Below, piece after piece: positions 671 to 36,724 of a stretch of DNA of 46,331 bases. The stretch's first letter is position 1, and each line of letters begins with the position of its first letter. Origin of the DNA: Opitutaceae bacterium (GTDB lineage Bacteria; Verrucomicrobiota; Verrucomicrobiia; Opitutales; Opitutaceae). The translations under genes were made by a program, and so were the position numbers. Under the pieces are notes generated by a model that was given only the letters and a program-made list of their open reading frames with translations, made no database searches and was not told the origin of the DNA. Location: NCBI GenBank assembly GCA_016794625.1, contig JAEUGY010000102.1:1-46331 (forward strand), read 5' to 3'.

Positions 671-898
671 ATGACCACGCGCGATGTCATTCTCGCCTAC
701 CAGAAGAAGGTTCCGTTCCTCCCGTTCACCATTCATCTGTCAGACCGGCTTGCCTTCAAGGTTCTGCACCCGGACGCCTTGTTCAGCTCCAAGATGGGCA
801 TCCTCTACCACGAGTCCGACGACGGTGAACTGACGATTTTCGATTTGGGTCAAATCACCTCCGTCAATGTCAAGCGGTCGCCTCGTTCCGCAGCCTGA
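671..898 (+). CDS. Small hypothetical protein inserted between nuoE and nuoF
   Basis: A 75-residue soluble protein with no signal peptide or membrane segment. It begins MTTRDVILAYQKKVPFLPFTIHLSDRL-type and continues with a Val/Leu-His-Pro stretch (VLHPDALF) and an acidic DDGELTIFDLGQITSV segment. This pattern (PF-x-PF-x-IHLSD, then HPD, then YHESDDG, then DL-x-x-ITS) resembles, from memory, a family of short uncharacterised proteins found mostly in planctomycetes and verrucomicrobia, probably a small beta-barrel-like fold. The function is unknown. It is co-oriented with nuoE (27 bases upstream) and nuoF (34 bases downstream), so it is almost certainly co-transcribed. The canonical nuo operon has no gene here. 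Confidence 0.75.
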   Translation: MTTRDVILAYQKKVPFLPFTIHLSDRLAFKVLHPDALFSSKMGILYHESDDGELTIFDLGQITSVNVKRSPRSAA

Positions 899-932
899 CT
901 CGAACCCGCACCTGTCGCTCTCTCCCTTTTCC

Positions 933-2294
933 ATGTCCGCGCCCGCCCAACGCCGCATCATTTTCCAGCACATCGACGAGCCGGGGTATACCAATGACCT
1001 CGCCTGCTACGTCCGTCATGGCGGATACGAGACCTTCAAGAAGTCGGTCGCCCGCAAGCCGGAGGAGCTGATCGACGAGGTCAAGAAGTCGGGCCTGCGC
1101 GGCCGGGGCGGCGCCGGTTTTCCCTGCGGCGTGAAGTGGAGCCTGGTCGACCGCAAGAGCGGCAAGCCGATCTACCTCGTGGTCAATGCCGACGAGTCGG
1201 AGCCCGGCACCTTCAAGGACCGGTACATCATGCACCAGGATCCGCACCAGCTGATCGAGGGCATCATGATCACCTGTTTCGCGAACAACGTGAAGCAGGC
1301 CTACATCTACATCCGCGGGGAGTTTCCCCACGGAGCCCGCATCCTCGAAAAGGCGATCGCGGAAGCCCGGGCGGCGAATTTTGTCGGCCCGAATGTGCTC
1401 GGCACCGGCTACAGCTGCGAAATCTACGTGCACCGCGGCGCCGGCGCCTACATCTGCGGCGAGGAAACGGGTCTGATCGAGTCCCTCGAGGGCAAGCGTC
1501 CCTATCCCCGCATCAAGCCGCCGTATTTCCCGGCGGTGCTCGGCCTTTACCAGTGCCCGACGATCGTCAACAACGTGGAGACGCTCTGCCACGTGAAGTA
1601 CATCGCCGAGGTCGGCGGCGAGGCCTACTCCAAGATCGGCACGCCGAACAACACCGGCACCCGCATCCTTTGCGTCTCGGGGCATGTGCAGCGCCCGGGT
1701 TACTACGAGTTTGAGGTGGGCAAGATCACCCTCGGTCAGCTGCTCTACGACGTCTGCGGCGGTCCGCTCCCGGGCCGCACGTTCAAGGCCGTCATTCCCG
1801 GAGGCTCCTCCGCCAAGATCCTCAAGGTCGGCGAACGCTTCAAGGGCAAGCGCAAGGTCGGGCCCGACATGGTCGACTACGACTGGGGCATCGAGGATGT
1901 GCCGATGGACTTTGATTGCCTCGCGATGATCGGCTCGATGGGCGGTTCCGGCGGCGTGATTGTGATGGACGACTCCGTCGACATGGTCGCCGCGCTCGCC
2001 AACATCAACGCCTTCTACGCGCACGAAAGCTGCGGCCAGTGCACGCCCTGCCGCGAAGGCTCGCTCTGGATGAAGAAGATCTCCTCGCGCATGATTCACG
2101 GCGAGGCCCGGCCCGAGGACGGCGCGCTGCTCAAGAGCGTGGCCGACCAGATCGCCGGCCGCACCATCTGCGCCTTCGGCGAAGCCTGTTCCTGGCCGAC
2201 CCAGAGCTTCATCGCCAAGTTCGGCGACGAATTCAAAGCCTACCCGCAAACCAAGAAGGCGCCCAAGGCCGAGAACGCCTTGGAGCTGGTTTAA
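933..2294 (+). CDS. nuoF: NADH-quinone oxidoreductase subunit F (51 kDa, NADH/FMN site)
   Basis: A 453-residue subunit that binds NADH and FMN and carries cluster N3; it is the electron entry point of complex I. Visible motifs are the glycine-rich FMN/NADH loop GLRGRGGAGFPCGVKW (55-69), ADESEPGTFKDR (86-97), GAYICGEETGLIESLEGKRP (171-190) and the 4Fe-4S ligands C367, C370, C373 (SCGQCTPC) with C413. An upstream start at 867 stays in frame but overlaps the preceding gene and adds 22 residues of low conservation. The ATG at 933, behind a nearly pure pyrimidine tract (ctctctcccttttcc), is preferred. The length is normal for NuoF. Confidence 0.97.
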   Translation: MSAPAQRRIIFQHIDEPGYTNDLACYVRHGGYETFKKSVARKPEELIDEVKKSGLRGRGGAGFPCGVKWSLVDRKSGKPIYLVVNADESEPGTFKDRYIMHQDPHQLIEGIMITCFANNVKQAYIYIRGEFPHGARILEKAIAEARAANFVGPNVLGTGYSCEIYVHRGAGAYICGEETGLIESLEGKRPYPRIKPPYFPAVLGLYQCPTIVNNVETLCHVKYIAEVGGEAYSKIGTPNNTGTRILCVSGHVQRPGYYEFEVGKITLGQLLYDVCGGPLPGRTFKAVIPGGSSAKILKVGERFKGKRKVGPDMVDYDWGIEDVPMDFDCLAMIGSMGGSGGVIVMDDSVDMVAALANINAFYAHESCGQCTPCREGSLWMKKISSRMIHGEARPEDGALLKSVADQIAGRTICAFGEACSWPTQSFIAKFGDEFKAYPQTKKAPKAENALELV

Positions 2295-2304
2295 GGGAAT
2301 TGAG

Positions 2305-2700
2305 ATGGAAATCAGAATCCAGAATCCAGGAGCCAGTAGGGCGACAGCGAAGTCGTTCGAAGACTTGATCGTGTGGCAGAAGGCGCACGCATGGGTTCTA
2401 TCGACGTATCGACTGAGCGAGCGTTTTCCCCAGAAGGAGACCTACGCCTTGACCTCGCAATTGCGTCGGTCGGCGATGTCGGTGCCAGCGAACATTGCAG
2501 AGGGCTTCAAGAAGCGAGGGACCCGCGACAAGTTGCGCTATTATAACATCGCCCAAGGATCGCTGGAGGAGTCGCGCTACTATTTCATTCTCGCTCGCGA
2601 CCTCGGATACGTCGCCATCGCCAATGAAATGGAGCGACTCGAAGAAGTGAGTCGCCTGCTGGAATCGTACTGCCGCACCCTTCTGAATTCTGAATTCTGA
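2305..2700 (+). CDS. Four-helix-bundle protein (23S rRNA intervening-sequence protein family) inside the nuo operon
   Basis: A 131-residue helical protein of the S23/IVS-protein family. The core carries the family hallmarks: a DLIVWQKAH start, FPQKETYALTSQLRRSAMSV, PANIAEG, and GSLEESRYYFILARDLGY. Members occur within intervening sequences of 23S rRNA genes or as free-standing genes, and form pentameric four-helix bundles related to Avd; their cellular role is unclear. Here the gene sits between nuoF (11 bases upstream) and nuoG (20 bases downstream), on the same strand. Its first codons (MEIRIQNPG) and its last (NSEF-stop) are encoded by short heptamer repeats. The repeat supplies the stop codon, as if the gene arrived as a cassette. 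No rRNA gene is nearby. Confidence 0.9.
   Translation: MEIRIQNPGASRATAKSFEDLIVWQKAHAWVLSTYRLSERFPQKETYALTSQLRRSAMSVPANIAEGFKKRGTRDKLRYYNIAQGSLEESRYYFILARDLGYVAIANEMERLEEVSRLLESYCRTLLNSEF
2312..2331 (+). repeat. Left heptamer repeat of four-helix-bundle cassette 1
   Basis: Nearly three tandem 7-base units (TCAGAAT, CCAGAAT, CCAGGA) lie just after the start codon of the four-helix-bundle gene. The unit is a slightly decayed reverse complement of the TTCTGAA repeat at 2681-2704, so the two runs form an imperfect terminal inverted repeat around the gene. Confidence 0.6.
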
Positions 2701-2704
2701 ATTC
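2681..2704 (+). repeat. Right heptamer repeat of four-helix-bundle cassette 1
   Basis: Three perfect tandem copies of TTCTGAA plus a partial fourth (TTC). The third copy provides the TGA stop codon (2698-2700) of the four-helix-bundle gene. Together with the inverted, degenerate copies at 2312-2331 it frames the gene. nuoG starts 17 bases further on. Confidence 0.8.
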
Positions 2705-2720: not shown

Positions 2721-4409
2721 ATGATCCAGCCCGCCAAACCCGACCTCGTCACCGTCAATGTCGACGGCAAAGACATTGCCGTGCCGAAGGGCACCAATGT
2801 GATCGAAGCCGCCCGCCTGGTGGGGGTGGACATCCCGCACTACTGCTACCACCCGAAGCTGAGTGTGGTCGGTAACTGCCGGATGTGTCTGATCGAAATG
2901 GGCATGCCGGCGGTTGACCCGGCGACCAAGGCGCCGGTGATGGACCCGGCCACGGGCAAACAGAAGATCAACTGGATCCCGCGCCCGCAGATCGGCTGCG
3001 CCACGAACGCCTCGCCGGGACTGCACATCCGCACCCAGACGCCCCAGATCAAGGACTGCCGCGAAGGGGTGATGGAGTTTCTGCTTATCAATCATCCGCT
3101 CGACTGTCCGATCTGTGACCAGGCCGGCGAATGCAAACTCCAGGAGCAGTCGACCGGCTACGGCCGGGGTTACTCGCGCTTCATCGAGAACAAGAACGTC
3201 AAACCGAAGCGCACCCAGCTCGGGCCGCGGGTGACCCTCGACGACGAGCGCTGCATCCTGTGTTCGCGCTGTATCCGTTTTTCCAAGGAGATCGCGAAGG
3301 ACGACGTGCTCGGGTTCATCGATCGCGGCAGCTATTCGACGCTGACCTGCTATCCGGGCAAAAAGCTCGAGAACAACTATTCGCTCAACACGGTGGACAT
3401 CTGCCCGGTCGGCGCGCTGACCTCGACGGACTTCCGCTTCAAGATGCGCGTCTGGTTCCTGAAGCAGACCAACAGCATCGACACCGAGTCGTCCGTCGGC
3501 GCCAACACGGTGGTCTGGTCGCGCGAGGGCGTGATCTACCGGATCACCCCGCGCCGCAACGACGAGGTGAATGACACCTGGATGGCCGACAGCGGCCGGC
3601 TGCTCTACAAGGAGGTCAAGGCCCCGACCCGCCTGACCACGACCGAGTCGCTGGACACCCTGGTCGCCGCCGCCGAGAAGGTGCTCAAGAGTGCGCCGGG
3701 TGCGGTGGCCGTGGTCGGCTCGGGCCGGAGCACGGTGGAGGAACAATTTCTGACCCGCCGTCTGGCCGACGCCCTCAAGGCGCCGGTCTCGCTCGTCGCC
3801 CGCACGGGCGAAGGGGATGGCATTTTGGTCTCGGCGGATCGCAACCCCAATGTCCGCGGCGCCCTCGTGACGGGTCTGGTCTGCGCCCTGCCATCCGCCC
3901 GCTTGGATGACCTCGCACGGGCGATCGACGCCGGCCAGATCAAGGCCGTGGTTTCCGTGGGCGAGGACCTCGTCGCGGCCGGTCTGACCGCCGCGCAGCT
4001 GGCCAAGGTTTCGATCGTCTATCTCGGCACCCAGACCAACGCCACCAGTGTGGCGGCCCGGGTGGTGCTGCCGACCCTGACCGTGTTCGAAAAGTCCGGC
4101 ACGTTCGTGAACCAGCAGTTCCGTCTGCAAAAGGTTGCCAAGGCCGTGCCGGGAGTCGCTGGCGCCTTTGATGACCTTGTCGTGCTCGCCCGGCTGGTGA
4201 CCGCCGCGGGCGGCCCGGCGGTGAATCCGGAGCTGCACAGCCTGTGGAGCCTGCTGACCGCGGAGGTCCGCGCGCTGAGCACGGTCACCTACCGTACCCT
4301 GCCGGAAACGGGTTTGCTGCTGGATTCCACCCCGTGGCAGGGGCTGCCGTTTGTCGAAGGCGAGACCTTGCACTACAAGCCGGCCAAGGCGGAAGCGCTG
4401 AAAAGCTGA
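2721..4409 (+). CDS. nuoG: NADH-quinone oxidoreductase subunit G (75 kDa, short form without N7)
   Basis: A 562-residue iron-sulfur subunit that passes electrons from NuoF towards NuoI. The N-terminal ferredoxin domain binds N1b (C42, C53, C56, C93). The next region binds N5 with a His ligand (H125, C129, C132, C138). N4 is bound by C178, C181, C184 and C228. The fourth cluster site present in E. coli and Thermus (N7) is missing: the region around 250-262 reads NSIDTESSVGANTV, with no cysteines. The C-terminal molybdopterin-oxidoreductase-like part is short, so the protein resembles the mitochondrial layout more than the roughly 900-residue E. coli form. It starts just past the four-helix-bundle cassette. 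Confidence 0.95.
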   Translation: MIQPAKPDLVTVNVDGKDIAVPKGTNVIEAARLVGVDIPHYCYHPKLSVVGNCRMCLIEMGMPAVDPATKAPVMDPATGKQKINWIPRPQIGCATNASPGLHIRTQTPQIKDCREGVMEFLLINHPLDCPICDQAGECKLQEQSTGYGRGYSRFIENKNVKPKRTQLGPRVTLDDERCILCSRCIRFSKEIAKDDVLGFIDRGSYSTLTCYPGKKLENNYSLNTVDICPVGALTSTDFRFKMRVWFLKQTNSIDTESSVGANTVVWSREGVIYRITPRRNDEVNDTWMADSGRLLYKEVKAPTRLTTTESLDTLVAAAEKVLKSAPGAVAVVGSGRSTVEEQFLTRRLADALKAPVSLVARTGEGDGILVSADRNPNVRGALVTGLVCALPSARLDDLARAIDAGQIKAVVSVGEDLVAAGLTAAQLAKVSIVYLGTQTNATSVAARVVLPTLTVFEKSGTFVNQQFRLQKVAKAVPGVAGAFDDLVVLARLVTAAGGPAVNPELHSLWSLLTAEVRALSTVTYRTLPETGLLLDSTPWQGLPFVEGETLHYKPAKAEALKS

Positions 4410-4420
4410 GGGACTGAACG

Positions 4421-5575
4421 ATGGACTTCTCTTTCTACTTCGACCTGCCGCTCGCGTTGCGCCTGCTCCTGCAGGGCACCGCCGTGATCCTCGTGCTCTT
4501 CCCCCTCGCGGCCGCCTGTTCGATGGCCGAGCGCAAGATTTCCGCCTGGATCCAGGGCCGGCCGGGTCCGAATCGGACCATGCCCCCGTTCATGGCCTAT
4601 GTGCCGGTGATCGCTCCGATCCTGCGCAGCCTGGGCCTTTTCCAGCTGGCGGCCGACGGCGGCAAGTTTGTCTTCAAGGAGGATCCGATCCCGGGGCACG
4701 TCAACAAGCTCTACTTCGTCCTCGCCCCGATCCTGTCGATGATCCCGGCGCTCACTACGATCACGGTGGTGCCGTTTGGCGCGTACCTGAACCAGGCGGG
4801 TGCCTGGGTGCCGATCGTGCTGGCCAACCTCGACGTGGGCCTTCTGGCCGTCTTTGCGGTCTCCTCGCTCGGCGTCTACTCCATCATTCTCGCCGGCTGG
4901 GCCTCCAACTCGAAGTATCCGTTCCTCGGCGGCGTGCGCGCCTCGGCCCAGTTGATTTCGTACGAACTGTCGATGACGCTGTCGGTGCTGCCGGTCTTCC
5001 TCTGGGTCAATGCCCCGGGCGGCAGTGGCACGCTGAGTCTGTTTGATGTCGTGCAGAGCCAGAGCCAGCCCGGGCTGTGGGGTGGGGCGTGGTATGCGTT
5101 CCTCATGCCGGTTTCGGCCTTCATTTTCCTGGTGGCCCTGTTCGCCGAGACGAACCGCCAGCCATTCGACATGCCGGAATCCGAGGCCGATCTCGTCGGT
5201 GGGTTCCACACCGAGTACGGGGCCTTCAAGTGGTCGCTCTTTTTCGTCGCCGAGTACTGTCACATGATCGTCGGCTCCGGCATCTTCGTCCTCCTCTTCC
5301 TCGGCGGCTGGAATCCGCTGCCGTGGGTGCCGCTTCAGACGGTGATCGAGGCGATCGGGCTCGCCGGGCAGCCGTTGCTGACCGGTGCGCTGGCGGTGGG
5401 CATCTTCCTCGGGAAGGTCGTCTTCTTCATCTTCTTCTTCATGTGGGTGCGCTGGACGCTGCCCCGTTTCCGTTATGACCAGGTGATGACGATCGGCTGG
5501 AAGAAACTCCTGCCGCTCTCCATCGCGAACCTCATTGTCTACGCGCTGGTCATCGCGTGGATCGAACGGTCCTGA
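4421..5575 (+). CDS. nuoH: NADH-quinone oxidoreductase subunit H
   Basis: A 384-residue multi-spanning membrane subunit that forms the quinone chamber with NuoB and NuoD. The conserved segments WIQGRPGPNR, DGGKFVFKEDP, AETNRQPFDMPESEADLVG and GAFKWSLFFVAEY are clear. The loop between GPNR and ADGGKF is about 18 residues longer than in typical NuoH, and contains MPPFMAYVPVIAPILRSLG. This lengthening looks like a lineage-specific insertion near the quinone entry region. It follows nuoG by 11 bases and is followed by nuoI after 67 bases. The remaining length is normal for the family. Confidence 0.97.
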   Translation: MDFSFYFDLPLALRLLLQGTAVILVLFPLAAACSMAERKISAWIQGRPGPNRTMPPFMAYVPVIAPILRSLGLFQLAADGGKFVFKEDPIPGHVNKLYFVLAPILSMIPALTTITVVPFGAYLNQAGAWVPIVLANLDVGLLAVFAVSSLGVYSIILAGWASNSKYPFLGGVRASAQLISYELSMTLSVLPVFLWVNAPGGSGTLSLFDVVQSQSQPGLWGGAWYAFLMPVSAFIFLVALFAETNRQPFDMPESEADLVGGFHTEYGAFKWSLFFVAEYCHMIVGSGIFVLLFLGGWNPLPWVPLQTVIEAIGLAGQPLLTGALAVGIFLGKVVFFIFFFMWVRWTLPRFRYDQVMTIGWKKLLPLSIANLIVYALVIAWIERS

Positions 5576-5642
5576 CCCCGCGCCGCCCTCTTCCTCCTTT
5601 CCGCGCAAGCGGTCCGAGCTCCGAACCTTCCGTCTTCCTCCC

Positions 5643-6191
5643 ATGGCCGTCATCCAAGTCGAACGCAAACCGCTCACGCTGGCCGAGCGCACCTATCTCC
5701 CGCAGATCTACCACGGGCTGAAGACCACGCTGAAGCACCTCGTCGCGCCGACGGTCACGCTCCAGTACCCCGAGCAGCGCCCGGAGATCCCGACCGGCTA
5801 CCGGGGCGTGCCGACGCTGGTCAAGGATCCCAATGGACGGGAAAAGTGCGTGTCCTGCCAGCTGTGCGAGTTCGTCTGCCCGCCCAAGGCCATCCGCATC
5901 ACCCCGGGGGAAATCCCGGAGTCGTCGCCCCACGCCCACGTGGAACGCGCGCCGCAGGCCTTCGACATCGACATGCTCCGCTGCATCTACTGCGGGCTCT
6001 GCCAGGAGGTGTGTCCCGAGGAGGCCATCTGGCTGCAGAAGCAGTATTCGATGACCGGTTACACCCGCGAGGAGATGGTCAACCACAAGGACCGGCTCTA
6101 CGAGCTCGGCGGAACGCTGCCGGACGATCATTTCAAGTGGGACAAGAAAAAGGCGGCCGAGGATGCCGCCGCCCACGGCGGACACCATTGA
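5643..6191 (+). CDS. nuoI: NADH-quinone oxidoreductase subunit I (two 4Fe-4S clusters)
   Basis: A 182-residue ferredoxin-like subunit that carries clusters N6a and N6b and links NuoG to NuoB. The two cluster motifs are C69-x2-C72-x2-C75-x3-C79P (CVSCQLCEFVCP) and C114-x2-C117-x2-C120-x3-C124P (CIYCGLCQEVCP). The reading frame stays open upstream to 5535, overlapping nuoH, but that extension is Arg/Ser/Pro-rich. The ATG at 5643 gives the family N-terminus and lies behind a pyrimidine-rich leader (cttccgtcttcctccc). The C-terminus ends in a His-rich AAAHGGHH tail. Confidence 0.96.
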   Translation: MAVIQVERKPLTLAERTYLPQIYHGLKTTLKHLVAPTVTLQYPEQRPEIPTGYRGVPTLVKDPNGREKCVSCQLCEFVCPPKAIRITPGEIPESSPHAHVERAPQAFDIDMLRCIYCGLCQEVCPEEAIWLQKQYSMTGYTREEMVNHKDRLYELGGTLPDDHFKWDKKKAAEDAAAHGGHH

Positions 6192-6224
6192 GCCCCGGGT
6201 CCACGCTCCAACCGCTTTCCAGCC

Positions 6225-33785: not shown

Positions 33786-34772
33786 TCAGGCGAGGATCTT
33801 GGCGCGGGAGGTCGGGTAGTCGATGAAGGTGGACTGGATCGCGGCGTGGATCTCATCGATCCGCTTCTGGATCAGGTCGAGGAATTCGTGCAGCCCATCG
33901 GAGATCACCGCTGGGCTGTCGGTGCTCTCCAGTTCCTGCCTCAGGGTGGTGGCGGCCAGACTGGCGGGGTTGCCGATGAGATGGTCATCCCCGTTGACGA
34001 TGCGCAGCAGCGCCTGCTCCATTTCGGCGACCGAGTAGAGGATGCTCCGGGGGAACAATTCGTCCCGGACGAGGAAGTCGACCACCCGTTCCAGGTTGAG
34101 CTGGCCCCGGCGACTTCGTCGAAACGCCTCGAAGGCCGAGCACGAGCGCAGCACCGATCCCCATTGGATCATGTCGAGCGCGGTGCCGACCGCGGCCACC
34201 TCCGGCAGCAGCATGTAGTACTTCACGTCGAGGATCCGCGACGTGTTGTCGGCCCGCTCCAGGTAGCGCCCCAGCTGGAAGAACCACCACTCGTCGCTCC
34301 GCGGCAGCATCGATTCCGCCACCCCGTAGAAGAGCTGAATCTGGGCCTTCACCCGGTTCAGGTACTCCGAGGACCCCAGCTGTGCATACCGCGCAAAGTC
34401 GTCGTCCTTCAGCTTCAGATAAAACGTGTTCAACGTCTCCCACACCTCCGCGGCGAGCAGGTCGCGGATGCAGCGCGCGTTCTCCCGAGCCTGGGAGACG
34501 CAGGAGAGGACCGAGGACGGATTGCGCCGGTCGAAGAGCATGAACTCCACGACCGCGCGCTCGCTCACCGTCTTGCCGTAGAGCTCGAAGAATTTCTCGT
34601 CGTTGCCCGCGACGAACACCAGCGGCTCCCACGAGCGCGGATCATCCGCCGCCTGCCGCGACTGCAGGTCGAGCACCAGCTGTGCATTCACATCGACGAT
34701 ACGAGCCGTGTTTTCGGCCCGTTCAAGCTGACGGGCCATCCAGTAGACGAGATTGGCAACGCGGGAAAGCAT
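33786..34772 (-). CDS. Alpha-E domain protein
   Basis: A 328-residue all-helical protein of the alpha-E family, recognised by MLSRVANLVYWMARQLERAE at the start, RCIRDLLAAEVWETLNTFY in the middle, and WWFFQLGRYLERADNTSRIL further on. Alpha-E genes usually sit beside a circularly permuted ATP-grasp gene and often a transglutaminase, and are thought to take part in a peptide-synthesis or peptide-modification pathway. The reaction is not established. Here the ATP-grasp gene lies upstream on the same strand (35231-36724) but a four-helix-bundle cassette separates the two. No transglutaminase gene is in the window. Confidence 0.9.
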   Translation of the reverse strand: MLSRVANLVYWMARQLERAENTARIVDVNAQLVLDLQSRQAADDPRSWEPLVFVAGNDEKFFELYGKTVSERAVVEFMLFDRRNPSSVLSCVSQARENARCIRDLLAAEVWETLNTFYLKLKDDDFARYAQLGSSEYLNRVKAQIQLFYGVAESMLPRSDEWWFFQLGRYLERADNTSRILDVKYYMLLPEVAAVGTALDMIQWGSVLRSCSAFEAFRRSRRGQLNLERVVDFLVRDELFPRSILYSVAEMEQALLRIVNGDDHLIGNPASLAATTLRQELESTDSPAVISDGLHEFLDLIQKRIDEIHAAIQSTFIDYPTSRAKILA

Positions 34773-34780
34773 GGAGAGAA

Positions 34781-34810
34781 ATGACGAATGACGAATTCCG
34801 AATGACGAAT
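34781..34810 (+). repeat. Left heptamer repeat of four-helix-bundle cassette 2
   Basis: Tandem 7-base units ATGACGA, ATGACGA, ATTCCGA, ATGACGA and a trailing ATG lie between the four-helix-bundle stop and the alpha-E start. The run is the inverted counterpart of 35178-35210, with the variant TTCCGA unit present in both. Confidence 0.85.
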
Positions 34811-34819
34811 GGGACCGGA

Positions 34820-35179
34820 CTATTTGACCGGGGTGGATTTTCTGAAAATGGTTGAGAATATGAGATTCAGTTCATTGGCCTCGGTCCAAAGCGAGCGGAG
34901 GGGAACTTTTTTCTCGGGAACGGCCTTGGCGAGGAGTCGACACCAGTATTTTGCTTCGCGAGACTCCTTTCGACAGAGGGCGATTTTGTGGCGGAAATCT
35001 GGTTTGGACTCAGCGTCATCGGCCTCGCAGTAGTTGGCTCCAATGCTGGTTCCAGAACGGACGAGTTGGCTGATGAGGGGTCGCGTCACCGCAGTTTCCC
35101 TCAATTCGAGGCACAATTCGATGATCTGATTGGCGAAAACCGTCGTTCGCTCCTCGAGATCGTAGGGTGTGCTGGCCAT
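34820..35179 (-). CDS. Four-helix-bundle protein (IVS-protein family, second subtype)
   Basis: A 119-residue helical protein of the S23/IVS-like four-helix-bundle family but of a different subtype from the copy at 2305. Hallmarks are ERTTVFANQIIELCLEL, LISQLVRSGTSIGANYCEAD and DFRHKIALCRKESREAKYW, ending LIFSTIFRKS. The start codon overlaps the first heptamer of the right repeat. The stop is about ten bases from the left repeat. It lies between the alpha-E gene and the ATP-grasp gene on their strand, so it can be co-transcribed. Function unknown; members form oligomeric helical bundles. Confidence 0.88.
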   Translation of the reverse strand: MASTPYDLEERTTVFANQIIELCLELRETAVTRPLISQLVRSGTSIGANYCEADDAESKPDFRHKIALCRKESREAKYWCRLLAKAVPEKKVPLRSLWTEANELNLIFSTIFRKSTPVK

Positions 35180-35210
35180 TCGTCATTCGTCATTCGGAAA
35201 TTCGTCATTT
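35178..35210 (+). repeat. Right heptamer repeat of four-helix-bundle cassette 2
   Basis: Units ATTCGTC, ATTCGTC, ATTCGGA, AATTCGTC and ATTT. Read on the minus strand this is AAATGACGAA, TTTCCGA, ATGACGA, ATGACGA, AT, nearly the same series as the left repeat at 34781-34810. The two runs thus form terminal inverted repeats of about 30 bases around a roughly 430-base cassette. Confidence 0.85.
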
Positions 35211-35237
35211 CGTGTGACCGCGCTGCGCGGTCACACG
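35211..35237. terminator. Perfect 12-bp hairpin at the end of the ATP-grasp gene
   Basis: Arms CGTGTGACCGCG (35211-35222) and CGCGGTCACACG (35226-35237) pair perfectly around a CTG loop. The stem includes the TGA stop of the minus-strand ATP-grasp gene and abuts the heptamer repeat of cassette 2. No T-tract follows on the minus strand, so it may be a pausing or RNA-processing stem rather than a full terminator. Confidence 0.5.
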
Positions 35238-36724
35238 ATCAGTTTTTCCGGTCCGCCCTGGGTCTGGCTCTGGACTTGGTCGTCGTCGGCGAGGACCCAG
35301 GTGTCTTTCGAGCCGCCGCCTTGGGAGGAGTTGACGACGAGCGAGCCTTTGCGCAGGGCGACTCGGGTGAGGCCGCCGGGCATGATCTTGATGGTTTCGC
35401 CGTTGAGGATGTAGGGGCGGAGATCGATGTGGCGGCCTTCGATCGCGGTGTCGCACACGCTTGGGCAGCGGGACAGGCCGATCGTGGGCTGGGCGATGTA
35501 GTTGCGGGGGTTGGCGATGACCTTGGCCCGGAATTCCGCGATCTGCGCGGCGGTGCTGTGCGGGCCGACCAGCATGCCGTAGCCGCCTGCCTCGTTGACG
35601 CTCTTGACCACGAGCTTGGGCAGGTTTTCGAGGATGTAGCTGAGATCCTTCGGATCGGACGAAAGGAACGTCTCGATGTTGTGCAGGATGGCGTCCTGCC
35701 CGAGGTAGAACTTGATCATCCGCGGCACGTAGTAGTACATCGCCTTGTCGTCGGCGACGCCGGTGCCGATCGGATTGCAGAGGGCGACATTGCCTTTGCG
35801 ATACGCGCCGACCAGGCCGGGCACACCGAGCAGCGAATCCGGGCGGAAAACGGTCGGGTCAAGGAAGTCGTCGTCGAGCCGCCGGTAAATGACGTGCACC
35901 GGGGCGAGTCCGTTGCTGCGGCGCATGTAAACCCGGTCGTTTTCGACCACGAGGTCGCTGCCCTCGACAATCTCGATGCCCATCTGCCGGGCGAGGAAAC
36001 TGTGTTCGAAGTAGGCGGAGTTGTACACGCCCGGGGTCAACAGCACCACGGTCGGTTCGGGCACGTGCTCGGGCGCGAGGTGGAGCAGCAGGTTGAGGAG
36101 ATCGTTGGCGTAGGTCTCGACCGGCCGGACACGGTAGTCGCGGAGCAGATTCGGGAACACGCGCTTCATCACCTGCCGGTTCTCCAGCACGTAGCTGACG
36201 CCGGACGGGGTGCGCAGGTTGTCCTCGAGCACCCGGTACGCGCCGGACTCGTCGCGGATCAGGTCGGTGCCGTTGATGTGGACAAAAAGACCGCGCGGCA
36301 TGGCGAAGCCCATCATCTCGCGCCGGAAATGTTTGGAGGTGTTGACCATCTCCGCCGGCACGACGCCTTCCTTGAGGATGCGTTGCTCACTGTAGATGTC
36401 CGTGAGGAAGAGGTTCAGCGCCTGCATGCGCTGGGTCAGTCCGGCCTCGAGCACGGCCCACTCGTGCGCGGGCACGATGCGCGGGATGAGGTCGAAGGGG
36501 AAAATCTTCTCGGTGCCGGCGGTGTCGGAGTAGACGGTGAACGTCACCCCCCGATTGACGAACGTCTGGTCGGCGGTGCGCTGCCGCTCGAGCAGGTCGC
36601 TCATGCTGTCCATGCGGCCAAAGCGATCGAACAGCCGCTGGTAATGAGGACGCGGCCGCCCCGGGCCGGCGAACATCTCATCGTAAAAGCGGCCGTGGTC
36701 GTAGGAGTGGAACAGATCGGACAT
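35231..36724 (-). CDS. Circularly permuted ATP-grasp protein
   Basis: A 497-residue protein of the circularly permuted ATP-grasp family that is typically paired with alpha-E proteins. Recognisable segments are [71 protein letters not shown] and [12 protein letters not shown]. The family is predicted to form amide bonds in an uncharacterised peptide-related pathway with the alpha-E protein. The first residues [18 protein letters not shown] match the usual N-terminus. The length is normal. The 12-bp hairpin described at 35211 overlaps the stop codon. Confidence 0.92.

Follow-up and report, generated by a model that had tools for sequence, protein, structure and literature searches.

What is a small gene framed by inverted seven-base repeats doing between two genes of an operon? 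The locus that raises this question lies in a 46,331-nucleotide stretch of an Opitutaceae bacterium (contig JAEUGY010000102.1; the window). A first-pass annotation of that stretch had read the locus as a compact gene-plus-repeat cassette with the layout of a mobile unit. We compared it with related loci (genomes and loci carry G and L labels; the source genome is G000). The comparison makes it likely that the locus is a transferable gene-plus-repeat element linked to a dispersed heptamer family.

The gene (34820..35179, minus strand) encodes 119 amino acids and belongs to the S23 family (23S rRNA-IVP, four-helix bundle; PF05635, TIGR02436). On its left lies a heptamer array (34780..34811, plus strand; AATGACGAATGACGAATTCCGAATGACGAATG) of AATGACG units with one TTCCGA variant, detected by TRF and as inverted repeats. 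The array on its right (35177..35209, minus strand; CATTCGTCATTCGTCATTCGGAAATTCGTCATT), detected by TRF and inverted matches, is the reverse complement of the left one. Because the S23 gene is on the minus strand, the left array is the 3' arm of the element and the right array its 5' arm. A perfect palindrome with 14-bp arms and a 1-base loop (35210..35238, minus strand) touches the 5' arm and spans the end of the upstream operon neighbour, a circularly permuted ATP-grasp gene (35231..36724, minus strand; PF14403/PF04174). The downstream neighbour is an Alpha-E gene (33786..34772, minus strand; PF04168).

The framing by inverted heptamer arrays, as first annotated, was borne out by the TRF arrays and by perfect inverted pairs of 17 bp and 16 bp that a repeat search found between them. 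The variant unit said to be common to both sides is indeed present in each, as TTCCGA in the left array and TCGGAA in the right, and the predicted overlap of repeat and start codon is real, the ATG of the ORF being part of the array. The window holds four period-7 rows (TRF, score 30), two at this gene and two at a second copy near 2.3-2.7 kb. The ungapped arm score of the element was 17, and none of 500 order-1 Markov shuffles reached it (maximum 13), which rules out chance as the origin of the arms. As the arms are complementary, a stem around the ORF is possible.

The predicted protein matched PF05635 with 47.9 bits (1.8e-12; cut-off 33.8) and TIGR02436 with 68.4 bits (5.7e-19; cut-off 24). 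Its AlphaFold2 model consists of four helices (pLDDT 95.3), and the nearest solved folds in a Foldseek search were the S23 proteins 2rld (E 1.3e-5, TM 0.78/0.85) and 2gsc. They were followed by the DGR reverse transcriptase (RT) complex 8ub7 and Avd 4dwl (TM 0.68-0.78, E 0.3-0.6). A profile search of the ORF returned PF05635 as the sole domain and neither a transposase nor a Y1 domain, in line with the earlier statement that no transposase is encoded. S23 structures have been solved since 2006 (2gsc). Solved relatives form pentamers (PMC4990558, available text; also general knowledge), and the same text describes S23/IVP proteins as lacking a known function.

The earlier annotation held that the gene separates two normally adjacent genes and suggested a search for empty sites. 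We examined 30 ATP-grasp/alpha-E loci, the best of 50 genomes with a match. The S23 gene was present in three (the window, G107 and G105, the last with its frame broken near the start), and arms with a gene remnant were found in G125 and G100. The other 25 gaps, which range from an overlap to 145 bp, contained neither an S23 gene nor, by eye, an obvious remnant. Among the empty sites is that of G091, of the same genus, where 26 bp separate the two genes. Two of the empty gaps (L111 and L120) hold short palindromic stretches, as seen by eye. At each of these five loci, filled or remnant, the two arms matched one another with scores of 16-28, and the upstream arm scored 6-16 against the upstream arms of the other loci. 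The two ends of the element therefore change together.

The source genome carries six S23 genes, two of them inside the window, and these genes are framed by differing heptamers. In the second window element, a 5' array of CAGAATC units (2313..2329, plus strand; TRF) precedes a TIGR02436 match (2371..2682, plus strand; E 7.3e-31), and the ORF extends into a 3' array of TTCTGAA units (2681..2704, plus strand; TRF), near-inverse of the 5' array (arm score 14). From their translations, we take its upstream neighbour (867..2294, plus strand) to be NuoF-like and its downstream neighbour (2721..4409, plus strand) to be NuoG-like. Elsewhere in the genome, a copy with a GAAGAGT unit lies between what appear to be LeuB- and AlaRS-like genes, and a copy with an AACGCTG unit lies between what appear to be glycolate-oxidase-like genes, both again judged from translations. 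Inverted arms at a score of at least 14 were present in four of the six copies; L038 and L039 fell below.

Among 30 NuoF/NuoG loci (the best of 79), an S23 gene was found in two, one being that of the window, and both same-genus genomes have the gap without it. The nuo element is common to G000, G086 and G075. By eye, about 11 of the 28 gene-free nuo gaps (within L127-L155) contain inverted arrays that are short, enclose no gene and belong to another type, with CACGAAA-like units as one example.

We then surveyed arms across the order, in which TIGR02436 is present in 41 of 86 genomes. The survey covered 82 distinct S23 genes from the window and loci L007-L095, a hand-picked subset of at least about 160 hit places, obtained from 97 rows after removal of duplicates and of the second halves of a split gene (L027/L051). 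Upstream and downstream flanks formed inverted repeats with a score of at least 14 in 57 of these 82 genes, which are not independent since orthologues such as L085/L087 are counted twice, compared with 0 of 133 in the background; 25 genes were without inverted arms at this score. Direct-repeat flanks occurred in 3/82, and a flank paired with that of one random other element per gene gave 0/82. The lag-7 score was at least 10 in 66 of 164 flanks and in 30 of 905 windows of the background; mild enrichment was also seen at lags 6, 8 and 12, and none at lags 5, 10, 11 and 13. The arm units vary by element, with lengths of 6 to 9 bases, mostly 7. The expectation that homologous genes have flanking short-period arrays was borne out, with units other than that of the window. 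A scan of named genomes gave 10 loci, and in six relatives beyond the close group of the query (L160-L165), four had arms at a score of at least 14. In 554 kb of loci we counted 35 inverted short-period pairs, 30 of them at an S23 gene, which is no rate because the loci were chosen for that gene.

Several side observations were made in these loci. On the sense strand, purines predominate in the 5' arm of 62 of 75 elements. Inverted CTCAGCT-type arrays surround another small gene, apparently for a membrane protein, at L064:2126-2544, so that other cargo may exist. A gene-less inverted pair at L062:5466-5597 has the unit of an S23 element 1.5 kb away.

Do the arms belong to the gene or to the site? 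We scored pairs of loci for shared arms (score of at least 12), defining synteny as protein similarity within flanks of up to 4 kb (1.5 kb for shorter loci); the pairwise arm score spans 170 bases that are partly non-array, and its thresholds were chosen after the scores were known. Among non-syntenic pairs, arms were shared in 20 of 38 with a protein identity of at least 0.6 and in 32 of 1976 with an identity below 0.3. Syntenic pairs with an identity below 0.5 shared arms in 4 of 58 cases. By this measure, the arms follow the protein more than the site.

Different elements at a single site were seen in one genus (g37), where the ATP synthase operon (genes named by eye) contains elements in five of eight genomes. 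This comparison leaves out both G077 sites and the G164 atpC site, where the upstream gene differs. Between atpD and atpC, G036, G161 and G162 carry an element with the unit TAACTGA, G050 and G163 carry one with the unit GAATAGT, and G160 is empty. The flanks of G050 at this site are about 97% identical to those of G036 and G161 despite the different elements. Between atpA and atpG, four genomes representing four species of the genus have one element in common, and G163 has another. Upstream of atpF, G036 contains a 105-bp gene-less pair with GAATAGT arms; we take this to be the atpE/atpF gap, so that one kind of arm would occur at two different gaps. A target-site duplication was not recognised at atpD/atpC, where close pairs are few, and no near-identical copies at two unrelated places were present among the loci compared. 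The ATP synthase operon of G036 has further insertions, namely DinD/BRO-like genes (by eye; L085:1013-1873 and 5350-6222). As judged from the sequences compared, the arms are real and inverted, the sites are empty in close relatives, and sister species have different elements in one gap; from this we infer that the element is mobile.

The repeat unit is not confined to the S23 genes. The window unit (18 bases, up to two mismatches) had 197 overlapping matches in its own genome and the unit of L037 had 181, with none for the reversed controls. Among the matches listed, exact ones to the window unit occurred at 33 separate places, the window included. The mobile-cassette reading came through both checks that could have refuted it, as homologous genes carry flanking arrays and empty sites exist, and gene and arms occur together at unrelated sites. 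The heptamer itself is not private to the cassette and is found mostly away from the gene. Among 10 dispersed copies sampled, three are exactly the 32-base window array, TTCCGA variant included. These AATGACG copies are solo arrays, with an inverted partner within 700 bp in 0/10, and a hairpin with a stem of at least 7 lies on the 5' side in 5/10 and on the 3' side in 5/10, compared with 10/400 background windows. The unit is unevenly distributed over 80 family genomes: 197 matches in its own, 97, 67 and 62 in three others, 1 and 0 in two of the same genus, and none in 41 of the 80. The reversed control was not always silent elsewhere, with up to 14 matches (G116).

In an 800-kb sample of the source genome, 32 of 45 period-7 arrays matched a resident S23 unit (at most one mismatch), versus 8.8% of random heptamers. 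This census was not blind, as dispersal of two of the five units had been established beforehand; the sample includes one S23 gene (L038), and the L039 unit was left out. The unit of the nuo element had no array in this sample. A census of periods 6-9 gave 23 of 69 arrays matching the genome's own arms in G000 and 18 of 52 in G013, with 0-9 matches for other arm sets in each case (eight sets for G000). In G085, 8 of 50 arrays matched its own arms, and 10, 11 and 10 of 50 matched those of G000, G013 and G075. The arm sets comprise 1 to 9 elements and require an arm score of at least 12 (passed by 5/7 fetched in G085 and 4/6 in the source genome); these uneven sets and the score filter may explain part of the poor result for G085. 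S23 genes and heptamer arrays are tied together by these data in two of the three genomes sampled. Some intergenic regions of the source genome (L220-L279) are mosaics in which heptamer arrays of several types are separated by GC-rich hairpins.

Of 59 elements, nine have a perfect hairpin with a stem of at least 10 just beyond the 5' arm and one has such a hairpin beyond the 3' arm; among other gene ends, it occurs at 5 of 252. By eye, seven of eight 5'-side hairpins shown run across the end of the gene upstream. Palindromes in this position were noted at 35210-35238 in the window and in L036, L037, L016, L063, L073 and L089; in the orthologous pair L016/L073, the palindrome halves differ in step. 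Snap-back DNA synthesis at the 5' junction and a selected, end-protecting hairpin would both give such a structure. In the predicted RNA of the window element, the arms are paired (z -5.5), and across 57 elements the paired fraction of arm bases averages 0.84, equally on both strands. Inverted repeats pair in this way by construction. On the sense strand, A-C mismatches exceeded G-U in 38 elements versus 16 with the reverse and 21 ties (p 0.004). The arms show no G-U tolerance, so a sense-RNA stem as the target of selection is unsupported. We rejected selection for that stem, as a mismatch bias of A-C over G-U is the opposite of its prediction.

The S23 genes tend to point along the operon. 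Fifty of 65 genes with both neighbours called lie in tandem gaps and 15 do not, and in 45 of the 50 the S23 gene is on the strand of both neighbours (p 4e-9). Neighbour strands came from our own codon-model gene caller, in which strand errors occur; L056, for example, was called convergent, yet its window orthologue is tandem. On named plasmids, we examined 14 loci out of 23 records found, and 13 of the 14 have inverted arms. Nine of the 12 annotated plasmid loci are co-directional with both neighbours, including genes at cas10/cmr3, at cas6/cas4 twice, and in a conjugation gene cluster. The other three (L206, L211 and L217) lie on the strand opposite to both neighbours. Three S23 genes (L209, L213 and L214) lie within CRISPR cas operons of cyanobacterial plasmids. 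Carriage by phages was rejected on the basis of one query (L011), for which tblastn gave no match in 50,697 phage records and one scan of viral contigs confirmed no S23 match.

At L207, on plasmid AZO_p2 of Azospirillum lipoferum, an S23 gene with heptamer arms lies inside a 23S rRNA gene. The Coxiella intervening sequence (IVS) has tandem GACAGAT heptamers upstream of its S23p ORF (PMC4990558, available text). These two cases indicate a common anatomy for rRNA intervening sequences and the element in the window. In this light, the classic rRNA intervening sequence appears to be one site among those of a broader element.

The locus is probably a transferable unit in which an S23/IVP gene has a copy of a dispersed heptamer-array repeat on either side, the two copies being inverted, and which has settled between two operon genes so as to point along the operon. 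We propose that the S23 protein binds nucleic acid at the repeat unit of its own element, and that this binding might help both gene-less arrays and gene-bearing cassettes to spread or persist. The chemistry would fall to the host, through replication, recombination or template switching in hairpins. In RNA, the arms could pair into a stem around the gene, and a cut in that stem, of the kind made by RNase III in the Coxiella IVS in vitro, would free the message of the gene and keep the operon unharmed. That the S23 protein drives the spread has, in our estimate, slightly less than an even chance.

A simpler account would make the gene a passenger, with heptamer arrays arising as host repeats through slippage or another system and S23 genes sitting, or having been captured, between two of them. 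The dispersed AATGACG copies sampled are indeed gene-less solo arrays, half with a hairpin on either side, and the arrays of G085 do not track its S23 genes. Heptanucleotides are also the top class in most repeat-rich genomes, for which slippage has been proposed (work cited in PMC4679880, available text). This account is nevertheless rather unlikely, given that genes within one genome are framed differently and that unit likeness tracks protein likeness, unlike a single host-wide repeat; resident units also cover 32 of the 45 arrays in the 800-kb sample. Vertical inheritance of an operon gene with slippage-prone flanks, with repeated loss and no movement, would suit the nuo element of G000, G086 and G075 and the atpA/atpG element of four congeneric species. 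It is highly improbable in view of sister species with different elements in one gap, the same arms in another gap, and similar proteins with similar arms at unrelated sites.

Movement in trans by a reverse transcriptase, suggested by the similar fold of DGR Avd, or by a Y1/RAYT transposase is very unlikely as well. It drew on the DGR complex 8ub7 and Avd 4dwl among the fold matches after S23, and on the presence of RT genes in 20 of 41 S23-bearing versus 4 of 45 other genomes (Y1, 33/41 versus 11/45). When only genomes of at least 3 Mb were considered, neither association was significant (p 0.49 for RT, 0.19 for Y1), and both helpers were rejected on this ground. Five genomes with at least five S23 genes each, the source genome included, gave no RVT_1 hit, so RT genes are not needed for the presence of S23 genes. 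A regulatory or insulating cassette, whose arms are cut by RNase III and whose 5' hairpin shields the end of the upstream message, would fit the co-direction of S23 genes with the operon, the hairpins almost exclusively on the 5' side, and the in vitro cutting of the Coxiella IVS by RNase III, which yields ends within the stem (PMC4990558, available text). Its patchy presence and the lack of G-U tolerance in the arms speak against this function, which we regard as unlikely. A transferable gene-plus-repeat element remains our preferred reading.

In its widest form, the proposal would be that S23/IVP proteins drive many bacterial short-period arrays, each recognising its own 6-9-base unit, framing itself with inverted copies and seeding a gene-less family. 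On this view, rRNA intervening sequences, the cyanobacterial and Xanthomonas heptamers, and the Beggiatoaceae TAACTGA repeats would all belong to one mobile class that needs no known transposase or reverse transcriptase, which is conceivable yet doubtful. Heptamer arrays are common among long simple bacterial repeats and their origin is unsettled (PMC4679880, available text, and partly general knowledge). The tie between S23 genes and arrays makes both testable, as the gene predicts the unit and the unit predicts the gene. If true, the link would account for the S23 ORF in rRNA intervening sequences. The present data place such small elements inside conserved operons, namely those of ATP synthase, NADH dehydrogenase (by eye) and CRISPR cas (by annotation). 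In the open literature searched, no title, abstract opening or available passage, those of PMC5524665 included, tied S23 genes to heptamer arrays outside rRNA; subscription journals were mostly outside this scope.

Compared with known systems, the window element shares with the 23S rRNA IVS of Coxiella and Leptospira the protein family, the inverted terminal stem and an ORF that reads along the host transcript (PMC4990558, available text). It differs in lying between two protein genes, outside any rRNA gene, and in having element-specific tandem heptamer arms and gene-less dispersed copies. The heptamers of Xanthomonas and Nostoc likewise form arrays between aligned ORFs, with 70 and 75 inverted heptamer pairs in two Xanthomonas genomes (Rehm 2015, PMC4692102, available text). 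They differ in being treated as G-quadruplex repeats, and S23 is absent from the available main text of that paper. One of the solved S23 structures (2gsc) is from Xanthomonas campestris, in a genus with the heptamer GGGAATC. In Beggiatoaceae and cyanobacteria, the TAACTGA repeats (PMC4679880) have the identical unit that frames an S23 gene in G036 (L085:8546). The available main text of that paper does not contain 'Four helix', 'intervening' or '23S', and it raises the possibility that the mobile element is a protein binding TAACTGA.

DGR Avd (4dwl, 8ub7) has a fold like that of the window protein; unlike a DGR, the source genome (a draft, 95% complete) has 0 RVT_1 matches. RAYT/REPIN systems likewise combine a low-copy gene framed by repeats with gene-less copies of those repeats dispersed in intergenic gaps. 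Framing by genome-dispersed repeats was found for the window unit and, in the 800-kb sample, not for the nuo element. The window element differs from RAYT/REPIN in that its protein is a four-helix bundle without a Y1 domain and its repeat is a short-period array instead of a REP palindrome. Taken together, the many related genes framed alike elsewhere in bacterial genomes and the scattered gene-less copies of the repeats point to a little-noticed kind of mobile element.
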